Below are positions 34,978-43,769 of a stretch of 64,000 nucleotides of DNA, piece by piece. Numbering within the stretch: position 1 is the first letter of the stretch; each line of letters opens with the position of its first letter. Source of the stretch: Prasinococcaceae sp. CCMP 1430. Taxonomy: Eukaryota > Prasinodermophyta > Palmophyllophyceae > Prasinococcales > Prasinococcaceae. A program made the position numbers and the translations under genes. The stretch lies in the NCBI GenBank assembly GCA_013416795.1, contig RQSC01000008.1, positions 279,582 through 343,581 on the forward strand, read 5' to 3'. Under the pieces are notes generated by a model. It was not told where the DNA came from and ran no database searches. It saw nothing but the letters and a program-made list of their open reading frames with translations.

Positions 34978-35567
34978 CGAAGTACCGCGTTCGTGTCCAG
35001 TGCCGGCACTGCAGGGCCCGACAGAGCGGCGCGCGGTGCCTCGCGCGGGCGCAGACAGGCGGGGCGGCATTGTATTACGGTTTATCTCAATTATTAGGGT
35101 TTCGAGTGAAACGCGCGCCGCAGCGGCGAAACGGCGCGTTCCTCTCAGATTTCTGATCATACCATCGATGGGACTGTACTGTGTCTCCCTCTCAGATGCT
35201 GCCGCGCAGGCGGGGCGAAGAGACTTTGCGCATCCCCCCCAGCGCCACGCGCGCGCCACAAGGCGTGCGGGCGCCCCCACGAGGCACCCAGCGAGGGAAC
35301 GGGGCGGGGGTGGTTGGGTTGGCCTGGGGGCGGAAGGGGGGCGCGCACCGTGCTCCGCAGCCCCGCGCGCCTCGACAGGCGTGGGGAGGTCGCGCGCGCA
35401 CAGGAGTGTACGCGCGCTCCGGCTCGAACACCCGCGCGTGGAGCGCTCGAGACGCCGTGCCCGTGCGCGTGCGCCTACTCGCGCACGGCGCTCGCGCACG
35501 ATAACGGGGCACGGGAGGAGAGGAAACGCTGCTCTATGTTCGACAGCGGCGCGTTGAGTGGGTGAGG
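34978..35567. other. Intergenic, about 590 bp
   Basis: The 3' part of the ABC-F transcript and the promoter of the next gene. It contains an AT-rich patch (about 35070-35160) and GGACTGTACTGTGTC (about 35170). The ORFs seen here look like GC-driven shadows. No RNA gene was recognised. Confidence 0.5.
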
Positions 35568-35838
35568 ATGCCCGCCATCACCATTTCGCTGGAATCATCC
35601 TCGAGCGACGAGGGTGAACAGCAGCTGCGCGACGACGAGGCGTTCGCGCGGCGACTGCAGGCTGAGGAGGATGCCGCGTACGCGGCGGAGCTTCAAGGCG
35701 CTGATGCCCCCGCGGGGATTCTTCCCTTTGGACTCTTCCCATCTGCCAGCGCGTTACAGCCAAAGAGCGCGGACGAGGCACGTGGCGGAACTGGCCCGTC
35801 TGAATCGACGGCGGCCGAGGACGATGCGCGCAGTGCAC

Positions 35839-35869
<31 letters not shown>

Positions 35870-36519
35870 TGGGCCTGCACCTGAGCCCCAGCCGCAGCCG
35901 CAAGAGGGGGAACAGGAGGTAGCAGGCGCAGACTCGGACTGCCTGGTACTGGAGTGGGCGACAGGCGGATGCGAAGACGACGTCGTTGAGATTGCAAAGC
36001 CCGAGACATCGGAGACTTGCGAGGACAGCCACGGTGACTCCGACCTCCAAATCACAGGCAGGGCGGGACTCGCCGTGATCCGCGACTGCCCTCACCAACG
36101 CTTTTGTTGCGAGGTCGAGCCGTTCACGAAGGGTGCGTCGCATCAGCCTGCGCGCGCTGGGACACTTTTGTCCGAGCGGATCGTGCGACTCCTCTGACAC
36201 CGAAGCCGAGCGCTGCGCTTGCCTCTGCTGCCTCGAAGGAAACGAGCACGCCTTTTGCCCCAATTGCTATTGCGTCAAGTGTCAAGTCCCTGCAAGCGAG
36301 TGCAAGGAGTGGGCAGAACACGCAACGATCGCGAAGAAGAAGAAGCCGTTGAAGACGTACAGAACAGATCGACAACTGCTCCGCGAGTCGCGAGCCTATG
36401 GCATCGGCGCGGACACGGCCGAGCGCTCGAAACGAGCTCGAAAGGCCCCTGGTCGGTACGACCCCAACGTCGACGGGCTGAGCGACCGCCAGCGCAATGC
36501 GCGCGCGCGCAATTTGTAG
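35568..36519 (+). CDS. RIN13-like Cys-rich protein, with apparent frameshift
   Basis: The first frame starts at the ATG at 35568 (MPAITISLESSSSDEGEQQ). It carries an acidic/UIM-like stretch (RRLQAEEDAAYAAELQ), a Glu-Pro repeat, and a block DLQITGRAGLAVIRDCPHQR. A second frame, shifted +1 near 36130-36135, continues with CPNCYCVKCQVPASECKEW and ends at 36519 with a Lys/Arg-rich tail. Plant proteins of the RIN13 type carry the same two blocks in this order (a DLxIxGxxG...PHxRH segment then a CYCYVCD...C..W..H cluster), so both frames belong to one gene. No GT-AG intron of usable size separates them. Dropping one G from GGG at about 36131-36133 restores a single reading frame (FTKVRRISLRAL). It is either a sequencing/assembly indel or a real frameshift. 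The Cys/His cluster is likely zinc-binding. The molecular function of the family is unknown to me. Confidence 0.65.
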
Positions 36520-37256: not shown

Positions 37257-39035
37257 ATGTCTGCAGACGCCGGCGATCTCGGTCGCAGCGGAGGTGGCAA
37301 CGAGCGTGCTCGCGAACAGCTGTTCTTCCCACCGTTGGCGCAGCAGCGCACCGAGCTGCTCGCGCGAGTCCTCCGCCGCAGCGGCGCAACTGCGGTGGTG
37401 GACCTCGGCTGCGGCGAGCGCGCGTCGACGCTGCGCCGCCTCGCAACGGGCAGCGTGCGAGGGGAGCGCCGCACTGACGAGCAAATGAGAGCAGCGCGCG
37501 CGGCGCGCGATGGCGCCGAGCCATTCAAATTCGCGCCGCCACCGTTTCGCTCCCTGCGGCTCGCTGAGCTGTTGGGTGTCGAGCTGCGTGAACAGGCGGC
37601 CGAGCAGGCAGTGGAGGCAATCAAGACCCGCTCGGCCGCGCTGGCAGAAAAGGCGCCACGCACACGCATCTACCTAGGAGACATGCTTGACGCCCCACCG
37701 CCCGAGCTGCGCGACATCATCCGCGGGGAGAACGACGATGGTGGCGCCAACGGCCTGGTGTGGGCGAGTGAGGTCGTGGAACACCTCGACCCAGAGCCAC
37801 TCGACCGGTTTCCTGCCGCACTTCTCGGCGGTCACCCGCAAGTCGCCGTTGTGACCACGCCAAACGCGGACTACAACGTGCACCTGCCCGGAGTTCGACG
37901 TCCGTGCGATGGCGCCGAGCGTCCTTTTCGTGACCCCGACCACAGGTTCGAGTGGACGCGCGCACAATTCCAGGAATGGGCGAAGGCTGCGGCATTCACT
38001 CATGGCTACGAGGTTGAGTTCGCCGGCGTAGGATCGCTCCCCAACAGCGACCTGCTCAAGGCCCTGAAGAAGCGCCTGCACCAGTCGCTCGCGCTCTTCT
38101 ACTCCGCTAGCACTTTAGACATCGAGCGCCCGAAACCGGAGGGTCTGCCGCCCGGCGCGGGTGCCCTGCGTCACCTCTTACACGAGGGTAGCGACGCGTC
38201 GATGCCGCCATTGGAGGAAGGACTCACGCTCGACGAGCTCGAAGCAGATGTCGATGCTGCACTCGGGGCATTGTCGACATCTGTCATTTTCGACTCGCTG
38301 AGCACCTTGCTGCTTGCGCAGACTGGCCCGAAATTCGAGCAGCTGAGAGCAGCGGTCGAGTCCGATGGGTTCGGCTTGCGGCACGTGCGCTTCGTCGTAA
38401 GCTGGAGGCAGCTCGAAAAGGCGACTGGGTTGCAGGGGCCCAAGGACAGATGCAGCTTGCATGCAAAGAACGCGTCTGCGTGCATCCAAGTGTGTCGAAA
38501 CGATTCAACTTGGTGCACCGTGAGCATGGGCAAGCTCAAGCTGGGCGGAACCTCATCAGCCACTCGGGCAGCGTCCAAACATGCAACCGAGTCGGGATGC
38601 GCAGGAGAAGGGGGCGAAGGACAAGACCGCGCGCTGGTCACTTGCGGTGACGATGCCAGCGACGGTGAGCGGGGTTGCACGCGTTGTCGGTGCCTGTGGT
38701 CTCAGGGCAAGCGCCTTGACTGCTGGAACTGCTCAAAAGATAGCGCAGCACGTCTTGGGTGGAAGGCCGGATGGATTACGGAGATTTGCCGCCCGGCACA
38801 GCAAGTGGAAGGATTCTGCACACAAGTGGCCGTTTTCTATCGACGCAGCGATGGCGATAACTTCGACGATGTTCGCGGTAACACGCACGCGGAACTCGAC
38901 AGCAGGAAAGGATGGACGCTTGTATGGGATGCAGGCTCTTCACATGAGCGAATGGAGGCGGCCGCTAAGCGAAGGGCTGAGAGAGAGTTGTTCGGGCCCG
39001 CAAAACGGTATCGAAGGAGCGAAGGAGATCCGTAA
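37257..39035 (+). CDS. HEN1: HEN1-type small-RNA 2'-O-methyltransferase
   Basis: HEN1 adds a 2'-O-methyl group to the 3' end of small RNAs, protecting miRNA, siRNA or piRNA from tailing and decay. Starting at the ATG at 37257 (MSADAGDLGRSGG) gives about 592 residues. The family signatures are in order: FFPPLAQQR; VVDLGCGE (SAM site); the metal-binding EVVEH; VTTPNADYN; DPDHRFEWTRAQFQEWA, with the second metal-site histidine; and YEVEFAGVG. The E-x-x-E-H plus distal H set that binds Mg2+ is intact, so catalysis is expected. No dsRNA-binding, La or FKBP-like domains precede it, as in animal/bacterial short forms rather than plant HEN1. The C-terminal third is novel: an acidic helix-rich region and a Cys cluster (CTRCRCLWSQGKRLDCWNC) that could bind zinc. 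It is convergent with the DNA methyltransferase gene. Confidence 0.92.
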   Translation: MSADAGDLGRSGGGNERAREQLFFPPLAQQRTELLARVLRRSGATAVVDLGCGERASTLRRLATGSVRGERRTDEQMRAARAARDGAEPFKFAPPPFRSLRLAELLGVELREQAAEQAVEAIKTRSAALAEKAPRTRIYLGDMLDAPPPELRDIIRGENDDGGANGLVWASEVVEHLDPEPLDRFPAALLGGHPQVAVVTTPNADYNVHLPGVRRPCDGAERPFRDPDHRFEWTRAQFQEWAKAAAFTHGYEVEFAGVGSLPNSDLLKALKKRLHQSLALFYSASTLDIERPKPEGLPPGAGALRHLLHEGSDASMPPLEEGLTLDELEADVDAALGALSTSVIFDSLSTLLLAQTGPKFEQLRAAVESDGFGLRHVRFVVSWRQLEKATGLQGPKDRCSLHAKNASACIQVCRNDSTWCTVSMGKLKLGGTSSATRAASKHATESGCAGEGGEGQDRALVTCGDDASDGERGCTRCRCLWSQGKRLDCWNCSKDSAARLGWKAGWITEICRPAQQVEGFCTQVAVFYRRSDGDNFDDVRGNTHAELDSRKGWTLVWDAGSSHERMEAAAKRRAERELFGPAKRYRRSEGDP

Positions 39036-39327
39036 GGAGTTCTCCTTGCGCGCCCTGCCACGCGTACCGACCCCGCGCCTGCGAACAAGTCGTGGTAGGG
39101 AGCACGCGCCTCGCTTCCAATCCTCGACAAGCTCACCGCGGTTAACTGCGTCCTCGATGGGGCTCTGCTCACCGTGGGCGACTGCAAGGCGGTGGTCGCC
39201 TAGCGCGACCACTTCGGCGGCACGTCCACTCGCCCCGTGGACAGACGCGATGGCCGCGCGAAGGCCCCTCGGAGCGATGTGTAAGCAACGAAGAGCCGAC
39301 GGCACGTCCTTGCAGCGCCACATGCCA

Positions 39328-39609
39328 CATCCGCCACCTCTTCACTAACCGGGTCAAGCAGGCGGACCCAAGCCGCTGGCCGACGGGCAAGGTCTTTCGG
39401 GTCCTTGCCGACGGCCTGCACAGTTCATCGTCGGCATGCGTTCTCCGCGCGTGCGGCGTGCACACACACGACCGCCCCAGGCGCCGCTCTCGCGGCAGCG
39501 CTGCGGGCGGATAGCTAGCTTTCACTCATGCCCTTACTTCTTAGACACACGCGCGCTACGCAACTTCGCGCTTGCGTCTTCTCGTACTGTAATCGCACCC
39601 TTTGCAGCG
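39328..39609 (+). repeat. Diverged direct repeat, copy A
   Basis: About 280 bp similar to 40311-40590 (offset 983). Both copies share long exact stretches, including GACGGCCTGCACAGTTCATC and GTGCGGCGTGCACACA, and end in ACTGTAATCGCACCCTTTGC. In one frame both copies encode a related peptide (HLFT...QAD...WPT.KV.RVLADGLHSSS), which suggests an ancestral coding exon. I do not recognise the family. Confidence 0.8.
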
Positions 39610-39769
39610 CTGCTGCTCGAAGCGTTGCTGACTGCCTTGCGAGCCAGCCGTTGCCGCCGCCCGCCGCTCCAACTTGGGCTCCTCAGCCGCCAGTAGCGAG
39701 TTGAACGCCCAAAGTTCGTCGACGGAATAGAGCGCTCTAGGGGCGTCTCACTCCCTCACACTCCCCTCA

Positions 39770-40198
39770 TTGGTGGAGATCAGCCGGGTGTGCGCAGCGC
39801 GCGCTGCACACGCACCCCATGGCGGGCAGCTCGTCGCGCTGCGCGAGGAGCTGCAGCAGCAGCGGCAGGACCTGCAGGAGCTCCAGCCGCTCATGCAGCA
39901 GCTGCAGCAGGCGCTCACGCGCCTGCCCCCTGCGCCGCCCACCGACGCAGCCCCTGCGCCGCCCGGCGACGCAATGGCTTCTGGGGCTGTCCCGTCCGCC
40001 CCTCCGATCGCCCCCTGCCAACAGTTTCGCCTCGGTCGCAGCGGTGGCGAGCTCGACGTGTGCTTCGTTGTGGAGCAGTTCCCAGTTGGCGGAGTCGTCG
40101 AGGACAGTGTGAGACCCACGCAGTCCCCGAAGAGGGCCGCGGAAGGCTTGCTGGGGAAGTCGTCCAGAGCCATGCGGCCCCCCGGCGCCTGGAGGTGA
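39770..40198 (+). CDS. Possible small ORF in repeat region, unknown
   Basis: This open frame of about 142 residues begins at an in-frame ATG or near-cognate codon close to 39770. It includes a Gln/Leu-rich coiled-coil-like stretch (REELQQQRQDLQELQ) and a Pro/Ala-rich region. It lies between the two diverged repeat copies and may be part of a decayed mobile element or a fragmented gene together with copy B. The coding status is doubtful. Confidence 0.25.
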   Translation: MVEISRVCAARAAHAPHGGQLVALREELQQQRQDLQELQPLMQQLQQALTRLPPAPPTDAAPAPPGDAMASGAVPSAPPIAPCQQFRLGRSGGELDVCFVVEQFPVGGVVEDSVRPTQSPKRAAEGLLGKSSRAMRPPGAWR

Positions 40199-40310
40199 TC
40201 GCTTGGGTCGACGTCCAGCGCTACGCGCACATCTGCGCGCACCACACCATCCAGTTCCACACGCTGGCGTTCGACACCCTGGGCCGTGCGCACAGGTCCA
40301 CCATGGGGGA

Positions 40311-40590
40311 CATCCTTCACCTCTTCACCCAGCGGGACACGCAGGCGGACTCAAGCTGCTGGCCGACGCACAAGGTCCTTCGAGTCCTTGCAGACGGCCT
40401 GCACAGTTCATCGTCGGCATGCGTGCTCCGCGCGTGCGGCGTGCACACACGCGACCACCCAAGGCGCCGCTCTCGCAGCCGCGCTGCGGGAGGATGGCTC
40501 GCTCTCACACACGAACCTAGATCTTACACACGCGCGCTACGCAACCTTGCGCTTGCGTCTTCTTGCACTGTAATCGCACCCTTTGCAGCA
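40311..40590 (+). repeat. Diverged direct repeat, copy B
   Basis: The second copy of the about 280-bp segment at 39328-39609. It is followed by a (GCA)n run (about 40587-40605). The open frame through this copy extends from about 40199 (VIAWVDVQRYAHICAHH...) and keeps the shared peptide. Confidence 0.8.
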
Positions 40591-40642
40591 GCAGCAGCAG
40601 CAGCAGCGTCAGCGCGTTTCCGGAGTCCTGGCTGCTCAGTTG

Positions 40643-40671
40643 CTGCTAAGGGTGCGATTACAGTACGAGAA
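40643..40671 (-). repeat. Inverted copy of the repeat terminus
   Basis: This reads, on the minus strand, TCTCGTACTGTAATCGCACC and onward. It matches about 29 bp at the end of copy A (39579-39608) in inverted orientation with one or two mismatches. The pair brackets about 1.06 kb. It ends 5 bp from the stop codon of the DNA methyltransferase gene. Confidence 0.75.
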
Positions 40672-40675
40672 CAGC

Positions 40676-43600
40676 TCAGTTGTATGGCATCATCTCGTCC
40701 TGAACTTCCTTGAGCCTAGCGACGAAGCTTCCAAACGTTACGACCAGATGTGAGTCGCTCCCGCTGAATCTTGTACCTGAACGCCCAGTCACCGTGTCAC
40801 TGGAACCCCTGTTTTGCCGACTGAGCTGCTTGCATGGTGGCCTAGGCGATTCGTGAACACATGCTCCAGTGCGGTCAGCTCCAGCCAAAGCGAGTAGCAG
40901 TCATCGCTGCGACAGCAAGCAGCGCACGCGCTGTCGCAACATCTACTCACCCGCCGACCGTCGCATGAGGAAATCCGTGCCTCTTGCACAGCTTGATCAT
41001 TTCGTTGCGGTTGTGATACGCCTCACAGGTTGTGAGGGATCCCTCGTTAACGAAGTTTCTGACGGGCTTCTTGAGAACGTCAGTCCACCAGTGCTTTACA
41101 CACTCGGTCCTATCCTCGTCGATTTCCCACACCACCAGCTTGCGGATCCCCTCGTAGCTTTCATCTGCACGAGTAAGGACATTCTGGATCGCGAGAGGAA
41201 TTCCACCGATGCCATCGCACACGGAGAAGACGGTGATGCCGACGCCTCGGGCCATCGCCTGCTGAACACGAGGATACGTCGGCAATGGGCTCAGGAGGTA
41301 TTCGATGGTTCTCACGTCGACCGAGTTCCCGAGCGCTTCGCGTCTGGCCTTTGGACGCCCGCAGTACAGCGTGTGGCCGTCGGGAAAGCCCATCACACGC
41401 TCCGCAAGCTTTGCCGGCATGACCTCCACCTGGTTCACTCTCGCTCCAACGGGGACAAGATTGAAGCCCTTGATTTGGGCAATAGCTTTCGAGCCCTTCT
41501 TGACTTCGTCATTGATACTCTTCGCGCGCAGCACCGCCTCGTACACCTTGGGTGACTCGTACTCTTTCGTCGAAATCATGGAGAAGCGATGAACGACAGA
41601 AGCGTACCACATCGGCATGGCTTCAAGTCTCAAGACGTCCTTCATCATCTCGTGCATCTGGTCCCGCCGCTGAATCGCCGCTTGCTCGTGCGTGGCGGTC
41701 GGTTTCACGTGTCCGCGCAAGTTCGTGATGTAAACACGATCGCGAAGGGCTGTGCTCCACTGCGGCCAGCTGTTGAGCCTGACCCAAGGCAACGTCAGCA
41801 TCGCGGCGCTGAAATTGTTGAGCTCTCTCTTCTCCGTTGGGTACACGTTCTCAAATAGCAGTGCAAACTTTATCCCCGAGACTTCGTCTTCTGGGAGCTC
41901 CCACAGCATCTTGTCTCCCTGGCCGCCAGACGGCCGGGGCGGTGGCAGCATTGAGGGAAGTCTGATCGACTGCCGCCTCTCGGAAGCACGCTCGCGCACG
42001 CCTGCGCTTGTCTGCCGCCCCAGTCCAGGCAGTGCGTCGTGTTGGTGGTCACCGGACGCCCCGCCGATTCCCCCAATGCAACTCTCGCTATGGCTGATGA
42101 CCATACCTTCGCCGTTCGTGTCTTCGCTGGGCGGGGGGTCCGGGTATGCCACGTGCCGCGAACCTTGGATGAGCCTTCCGCGAGCCCGCCCCGGGAAGCG
42201 CGCCGCAACTTGGCGATTCTCAGGCAGCCAGAAGTCTCGGCAGACGTCATCAGCAGGGGCGTTGAAGTTCGAAAGTGGCTGCCAATCGTCGTGGGAACGA
42301 CCGTAGTGCATCCAACTTACCTTCAGGTATCTGATGCCCCTAATCAGGGTGTCGTCGATGATTGCCTCGATATGGTACTCCCTGCCCGGCTCGTTGGCCT
42401 CTTGCTCCTCGTCGCCATCGCCCTCGTCGCTGCTGCTGACTTGGAGTGCAGTCGATGGGGTCCCGCTCGCTTGCCGCACACAAGGACTCGCGCTTCTTTT
42501 CTCCATGGACCTCGTGCACATGCGCCGTGGCCTCGGGGGCAGTGCTCCGCTTTCTTGGTCCTCTTTCTCCAGTCGCCTAGCCAGCTCCTCCGAGCTTTTC
42601 ATCTGCCGCTCGTGGCGTTCGAGCCAACGCTGGTTGGCCTCGACTTCGCCTGGCTTCAGCATCGCCATCGTCAGGCGCTCCTCTTCTCTGCGCCGCTTGT
42701 TCGCTTCCAGGGTTTCCATCGCCAACAATTTGAGCGATGCCCGCTCCTCTTCCTCCCGGGCTCGCTTCCGACGCACCTCTTGTTTCCGTTCCTCCTCCTG
42801 CATCGACTCGGCCAATTGCGCGTCCTTCTCCGCTTGCTCGTCCCACTGAAGGCGTGCGCGTGCGCGTGCCGCCTCCTCTTCAATGAGCGCCGCAGCGAAC
42901 TCTGCGTCGCGCCTAGCTTGCTCCGCACGAGACGTGTCCTGCTCGGCGGCCATTCGCAGCATGTCTTGGGCAAGCGATGCGTCGGCATCTACCTGCGCAT
43001 CCGTGCGGAGTGCGCGTTGTTCGGCGATCACAGGGGCGTCGGCCACGCCTTGTACCTCTGTGGCTTGCGTGGGCGCGGGCGCCTCGATCGTCGCGGCCGC
43101 ACTTGCGAAACCGCCAGCGAGGGCGGGCGCGTCTGCGACTGCGAGCCCGACGGTGTGGTCGTCGTCTGTCGTATGTTCAGCGATCACAGGGGCGTCGGCC
43201 ACGCCTTGTACCTCTGTGGCTTGCGTGGGCGCGGGCGCCTCGATCGTCGCGGCCGCACTTGCGAAACCGCCAGCGAGGGCGGGCGCGTCTGCGGCTGCGA
43301 GCCCGACGGTGTGGTCGGGCGCGTCTGCGACTGCGAGCCCGACGGTGTGGTCGTCGGAGCGTACCAGCGCTGGCCCCTCAGCAAGTGTAGCAGATGGCTC
43401 GGGGTGCGCAAGAGCTACAGCACGCGCCGGTGGCTCGTGTCCTAGCTCAGCTTCATCGAGCTCTCCTGGCTCGCACTCGCTGGCTGTTCTCACCGCCGCC
43501 GTGCCATCGCCCGGCTGCGGTGCCGGCTCGGGGTCATCGTCGGAGCCAAGTAGCGCTGGCGCGTCGGCAAGTGCGGATGTCTCGGGGTGCGCAGGAGCTA

Positions 43601-43769
43601 GAGCGCGCGTCGGTGGCTCGCGTCCCGGCTCAGCTGCGTCGAGGAGCTCGCCGGGCTCGGCATCATCGATGCTGAGCCCTAGCTCCCTCGCGATGTCGTC
43701 CACGCGGCGTGCCGCAGCGGAGCGCGCCGCCTCGATGGAGCGACGAGCGGCTGCGGCCGGCTCGTCCAT
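40676..43769 (-). CDS. Chromodomain + rearranged (DRM/DNMT3-like) DNA cytosine-5 methyltransferase
   Basis: Exon 1 is 43769-40951 and exon 2 is 40841-40676. The 109-nt intron (GTGAGT...GCCTAG) joins in phase 2 and restores the catalytic motif IV as HATVGG|PPCKQLS, where the Cys is the nucleophile. The protein is about 994 residues. It has an Asp/Glu/Pro-rich N-terminus with a 52-residue tandem repeat, then a charged coiled coil (about residues 290-430). A chromodomain follows (EYHIEAIIDDTL, YLKVSWMHYGRSHDDWQP; about residues 463-520). The catalytic domain is in permuted order: motif VI-like LLFENV (about 636), IX-X ERVMGFPDGHT and ALGNSV (about 790-825), then motif I FSVCDGIGG (about 850), II VVWEIDED and IV at the C-terminus. 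This order is that of plant DRM and close to DNMT3. An upstream in-frame ATG (43976) adds 69 Arg/Ala-rich residues and is less likely. Confidence 0.9.
43018..43329 (-). repeat. 156-bp in-frame tandem duplication in the methyltransferase gene
   Basis: Two nearly identical 156-bp units (43018-43173 and 43174-43329) encode 52-residue repeats containing TIEAPAPTQATEVQGVADAP. A shorter partial copy (DHTVGLA.ADAP) follows. The near-identity implies recent expansion. Confidence 0.9.

Follow-up and report, generated by a model that had tools for sequence, protein, structure and literature searches.

Does the meeting of a small-RNA methyltransferase gene and a DNA methyltransferase gene at one locus mark a linked silencing module, or are the two genes neighbours by chance? 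The locus lies in a window of 64,000 nucleotides (the whole stretch of DNA analysed here; GC content 67.9%). An earlier note on this sequence had described a HEN1-type gene on the forward strand and a DRM-type gene with a chromodomain on the reverse strand, facing each other across 1.6 kb of repeats, and had suggested that they form a linked unit for silencing. We find both genes. The novelty of the locus lies in a permuted DRM-type gene with a chromatin reader rather than in the HEN1-DRM neighbourhood, which is probably due to chance. The features are listed by their positions in the window.

37257-39035, + strand: HEN1-type small-RNA 3′-terminal 2′-O-methyltransferase gene, one exon, 592 aa, methyltransferase domain first
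37767-37784, + strand: SEVVEH in HEN1, residues 171-176, presumed first three metal-binding residues (E-x-x-E-H)
37938-37961, + strand: DHRFEWTR in HEN1, residues 228-235, presumed fourth metal-binding residue (H)
39121-40671, no strand: patchwork of dispersed repeat fragments between both stop codons
40560-40671, no strand: the repeat's terminal motif as an inverted pair, with arms at 40560-40590 and 40641-40671; its end is 4 bp from the DRM stop codon
40676-40841, - strand: DRM exon 2, from the catalytic PPC motif (motif IV) to the stop codon
40842-40950, - strand: DRM intron, 109 bp, GT-AG (GTGAGT...CCTAG), placed by splice consensus and restored homology
40951-43769, - strand: DRM-type cytosine methyltransferase exon 1, with a low-complexity N-terminus, a Glu/Arg-rich segment, the chromodomain, motifs VI-X and then I-III
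42210-42383, - strand: chromodomain, about residues 463-520 of DRM, with aromatic cage Y-W-Y, placed by HP1/Clr4 matches and cage residues

The HEN1 gene

In a sequence search against solved structures, the 592-aa HEN1 frame matches the catalytic domain of plant (Arabidopsis) HEN1 (3htx, E 2e-19) and human HENMT1 (4xcx, E 7e-19), and bacterial Hen1 matches too. These matches, together with the SAM and metal motifs, confirm the identification made in the earlier note. The SAM-binding motif VVDLGCG lies at residue 47, and the frame carries the E-x-x-E-H...H metal site, the other feature of HEN1 membership, whose residues presumably play the role that they have in the HEN1/HENMT1 families. The terminal strand FCTQVAVFY is found at residue 520, after an insertion of about 250 aa. 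Since this strand and both motifs are present, the predicted catalytic domain is complete despite the insertion before its last strand. The N-terminal dsRNA-binding and PLD domains of the plant type were not found in the 592 aa, in which Pfam finds no domain. Ahead of the start codon the frame is short and of low complexity, and because the preceding gene ends at 36519 there is little space there for a dsRNA-binding domain. Given the missing Pfam match and the little upstream room, the predicted layout is that of animal HENMT1 and not that of plant HEN1.

A genome-wide search gave HEN1 as a single copy in 24.5 Mb. According to excerpts of published work, HEN1 has a patchy distribution among green algae and is otherwise a single-copy gene (PMC7994812), and of five siRNA-biogenesis genes examined it was the only one that turned up in algae (PMC6624907). 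Judging from its family membership, the enzyme most likely 2′-O-methylates the 3′ ends of Argonaute-bound small RNAs. Upstream of HEN1 we observed a small gene (35505-36519, +) with a Cys-rich C-terminal frame and no informative Pfam match; it carries a D-x-x-F-A-x-x-L-x-x-E-E motif that resembles two motifs in the DRM N-terminus. A contrast in GC3 between HEN1 and the DRMs (0.69-0.71) and the neighbouring ABC-F and F-box genes (0.87-0.88) was discarded because other frames of the window vary widely.

A permuted DRM-type methyltransferase with a chromodomain

In plants, RNA-directed DNA methylation ends with the DRM enzymes. The DRM-type gene of the window (43769-40676, -) has a predicted product of 994 aa encoded by two exons. 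The splice sites of this predicted model were set by eye: exon 1 ends in GG followed by GTGAGT, and with ...VGG spliced to PPCKQLSRQNRG... the predicted product regains catalytic motif IV. The start of this motif (GGPPCKQLSRQNRG, GGPPC, residue 939) falls at the exon junction, and exon 2 encodes most of it. The earlier description of the gene was right on family, but it stopped before exon 2, where the catalytic PPC motif lies.

Ahead of motif I (VFSVCDGIGG, residue 847) we found motifs VI (ENVYP, 640), VIII (RDRVYITN, 676), IX (MGFP, 793), and X (LGNS, 813), and motif IV comes after it. This permuted catalytic order, VI-X ahead of I-V, is that of DRM members, and it recurs in the genome's other DRM-type gene, on contig C108. 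The catalytic residues of cytosine-5 methyltransferases (PC, ENV, GxGG, LGN) are present in the window DRM, and the shared motifs are kept in an alignment of the window and C108 proteins with two plant DRMs. The best solved match of the window protein is DRM (4onq, E 1e-9), and phmmer aligns it collinearly with tobacco DRM and Arabidopsis DRM2 over motifs IX-X, then I-IV. Pairwise E-values favour DRM over DNMT3 for both algal genes (2e-19 versus 1e-9 for the C108 gene). The Pfam argument for permutation concerns which profile positions match where: positions 153-319 of the DNA_methylase profile match residues before motif I, while rotating the catalytic domain into canonical order gave a Pfam score that was no higher. 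A single-sequence model of the catalytic domain had low confidence (pLDDT 31) and was kept out of the evidence. No UBA domains, as in angiosperm DRM1/2, were found by Pfam at E<=1 on exon 1 or at E<=10 on the Glu-rich segment, and the gene is therefore filed as a DRM-type variant and not as a DRM2 orthologue.

The chromodomain falls below the Pfam cut-off (E 0.015) and matches HP1-alpha/CBX5 (8e-5) and Clr4 (1e-4). The role of the aromatic cage is well established for HP1, and all three cage aromatics are present here (EY, SW, HY). The domain would be expected to bind H3K9-methyl. A single-sequence AlphaFold2 model of it, with three strands and a helix, had low confidence (pLDDT 49) and was also kept out of the evidence; a fold search with this model gave nothing under E 0.2, with an HP1 chromodomain second at E 0.35. 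Altogether, the permuted motifs, the 4onq match, the HP1/Clr4 matches, and the cage residues bear out the earlier call of a DRM-type methyltransferase with a chromodomain.

The low-complexity N-terminus contains a 156-bp tandem duplication (43018-43317, 99% identity) that adds 52 aa. Additionally, it holds two D-x-x-[LF]-A-x-x-[LM]-x-x-E-E motifs, more than in shuffles, and Pfam sees no UIM there despite these ubiquitin-binding-like motifs. A 97% identical copy of part of the gene lies at C78:203142-203537 (L033) and is exact over 471 bp of exon 1 (window 41548-42018). We do not take it for a gene duplication, since it abuts a lone N beside a nucleotidase-like gene and is probably an assembly error; the genome assembly has gaps, and this fragment shows that misassembly is possible.

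The repeat-rich gap and other silencing genes

The stop codons of the two convergent genes are 1640 bp apart (39036-40675), and the sequence between them has 117 matches genome-wide at 69-100% identity, in agreement with the arrangement first described. Pieces common to the repeat loci compared account for at least 77% of the gap, and they are ordered differently at each locus. The gap is mostly dispersed repeat, or transposon debris. Pfam found no transposase or reverse transcriptase in the repeat frames and ankyrin repeats in one of them, and a search of the window with Rfam gave no match.

Two further observations concern the repeats. One of the loci compared, a repeat cluster at C54:101610-106768 (L028:2611-7769), has a 1.9-kb inverted duplication with 99.9% identity, and palindromes of this type could yield hairpin RNA. 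For the motif CTGTAATCGCACCC we counted 58 genomic occurrences, at about 22 places, as against one occurrence of its reversed control. In 3 of the ~22 places it stands beside silencing genes: Argonaute (C31:118896), the second DRM (C108:55956 and 57754), and HEN1/DRM (C120:319168-320244, window 39587-40663). The observation is post hoc; by our estimate, ~0.05 such places would be expected near the nine other silencing genes. This placement could reflect a repeat-based feedback sensor or coincidence.

The light-harvesting (LHC) proteins of the host are of the chlorophyll a/b type, which makes it a green alga. Known streptophyte algal genomes are larger than 24.5 Mb, and the host probably stands outside the streptophytes. 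The earlier note had proposed looking for Argonaute and Dicer genes, and the former was found: one match on C31 (L032:4168-6894, -) with PAZ and Piwi domains. In alignment, two of its four slicer positions are lost, D to N (RNG versus RDG) and H to Q, as would fit an Argonaute that guides rather than cuts. An exon-wise search of the genome with two models found no Dicer-type RNase III; it likewise found no organellar or plastid RNase III, so the Dicer result reflects the search more than the alga. An RdRP gene on C79 (L042:1434-7499, -) combines a helicase, a PHD finger, and the RdRP domain with the catalytic DFDGD kept; to our knowledge, an RdRP with a chromatin-reader domain is unusual. With both an Argonaute and an RdRP in its genome, the host may plausibly have a small-RNA pathway.

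The genome also encodes a DNMT5-like protein (DNMT and SNF2; C69) and two paralogous chromodomain-DNMT1-like proteins (C75, L037:1798-5982, +; C8, L038:2226-7010, -). The N-terminal chromodomains of the latter, one in the C75 gene and two in the C8 gene, lie outside the catalytic domain, unlike the layout of plant CMTs. Further DNA methyltransferase genes are found on C43 and C136 (DNMT2-like by its motifs), with a weaker match on C71.

Explanations for the locus and comparison with known enzymes

If the genome has ~7,100 genes, the number in Prasinoderma coloniale (PMC7455551), and about seven of them encode DNA methyltransferases, HEN1 would adjoin one of these at random with a probability of ~0.2%, a figure for this pair alone. 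The chance is far higher for any functionally related pair across a scan of many windows; since such a scan offers many noticeable related pairs, one adjacency of this kind is unsurprising and we take it as most likely chance. We consider it probable that these are two separate silencing genes, brought together by chance at a repeat-littered spot of this compact genome, with HEN1 capping small RNAs and the chromodomain-DRM methylating repeats. From its family membership, the DRM would most likely be a de novo cytosine-5 DNA methyltransferase, and its chromodomain may dock it on methylated histone H3, where repeats would become methylated. With this docking it would need no direct link to HEN1, and the two could be independent silencing factors, one acting on small-RNA ends and the other on methylation at methylated-histone chromatin. 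No relative of HEN1 or DRM was found on viral contigs, where an alignment query gave a 37-residue, motif-level match only.

If the pair were a functional module, small RNAs stabilised by HEN1 would direct the adjoining chromodomain-DRM to repeats. Selection would then have favoured the linkage, perhaps because siRNAs made from the inverted repeat between the 3′ ends repress both genes. The genome does encode Argonaute and RdRP, the Argonaute has lost slicer residues as expected of a guide, and the gap contains, next to the DRM stop codon, an inverted repeat; its motif recurs beside Argonaute (C31) and beside the other DRM (C108). However, the other silencing genes are scattered over different contigs (C31 for Argonaute, C79 for RdRP, C108 for the second DRM), HEN1 and DRM are convergent and so have no common promoter, no Dicer was found with two models, the gap is transposon debris, and the chromodomain already gives a targeting route that needs no small RNA. 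We found nothing that supports linkage and regard the module as unlikely. We also hold as rather unlikely a broader proposal in which the rearranged DRM domain predates streptophytes and here, guided by its chromodomain and genetically linked to HEN1, would work with HEN1-capped small RNAs and a non-slicing Argonaute as an early form of RNA-directed methylation where histone marks meet small RNAs.

The repeats bear on the origin of the DRM gene as well. Repeat fragments come to within 4 bp of its stop codon, and the second DRM on C108 is flanked on both sides by the same motif and adjoined by a long ORF that looks gag-like by eye. The gene could therefore be, or have been, cargo of a mobile element whose parts are the adjoining repeats, like the DNMT3s in dinoflagellate and Klebsormidium retrotransposons, a precedent described in excerpts of PMC5890265. 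Yet the window gene is one full copy with an intron, has no reverse transcriptase, integrase, or gag inside, and has no repeat on its 5′ side; the exact 471-bp match on C78, bordered by a lone N, is probably an artefact of assembly, and the gag-like ORF has no Pfam match. This origin is quite unlikely. A DRM3-like gene that is decaying or inactive, and is retained or drifts with no catalytic role, could account for the long low-complexity N-terminus with its recent 156-bp tandem duplication, the divergent catalytic domain, and the short C-terminus, but it fits poorly with the long open frame, the retention of all of the ENV, PPC, GxGG, LGNS, and TNL motifs, and a predicted intron that splices in frame, and we consider it very improbable.

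The more novel side of the locus is the DRM, with the permuted order directly seen in both DRM-type genes. According to excerpts of the broadest recent survey (PMC12344493, 2025), DRM occurs in streptophytes only and companion domains are absent from algal DNMT3s; the survey dates small-RNA-guided methylation from the streptophyte restriction of DRMs. A chromodomain-DRM in this alga would contradict the first two of these statements as excerpted. Plant DNMT3s are described, in excerpts of PMC6453930, as lacking a chromodomain. Among excerpts of the open-licence literature, we found neither a permuted DNMT3 that carries a chromodomain nor a permuted one from outside the streptophytes. Two DRM-type genes probably outside streptophytes would move the origin of the rearrangement back or mean that it arose twice. 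Additionally, a histone-mark reader on a DRM would show a direct chromatin-to-DRM targeting route.

The alga's HEN1 has in common with animal HENMT1 and plant HEN1 the catalytic domain, the E-x-x-E-H...H metal site, and the FF.PPL..QR domain start. It differs from plant HEN1 in having no dsRNA-binding or PLD domains, and its insertion of about 250 aa is seen in neither solved relative in the 3htx and 4xcx alignments. CMT2 and CMT3 are, like the window DRM, cytosine-5 methyltransferases with a chromodomain reader; however, they have an unpermuted DNMT1-type catalytic domain with the chromodomain inside it and a BAH domain. We ruled out a chromomethylase given the permuted order, the N-terminal chromodomain, and the lack of a BAH domain in Pfam. 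As described in excerpts of PMC5890265, SymbioDIRS-Dnmt3 and KnitGypsy-Dnmt3 are likewise DNMT3-clade methyltransferases beside mobile-element sequence in algae, but they are unpermuted, intronless, multi-copy, and fused in Pol frames, whereas the window DRM is permuted, intron-bearing, and single (one full copy, plus the partial one beside the N), with no reverse transcriptase or gag in frame. With Arabidopsis DRM2 and tobacco NtDRM it shares the permuted catalytic domain (VI-X before I-V) and DNMT3-like catalytic motifs, at ~30-32% identity over the aligned part. It differs from them in having PPC rather than SPC in motif IV, in its host, a green alga that is apparently no streptophyte, and in carrying a chromodomain where they have UBA domains.
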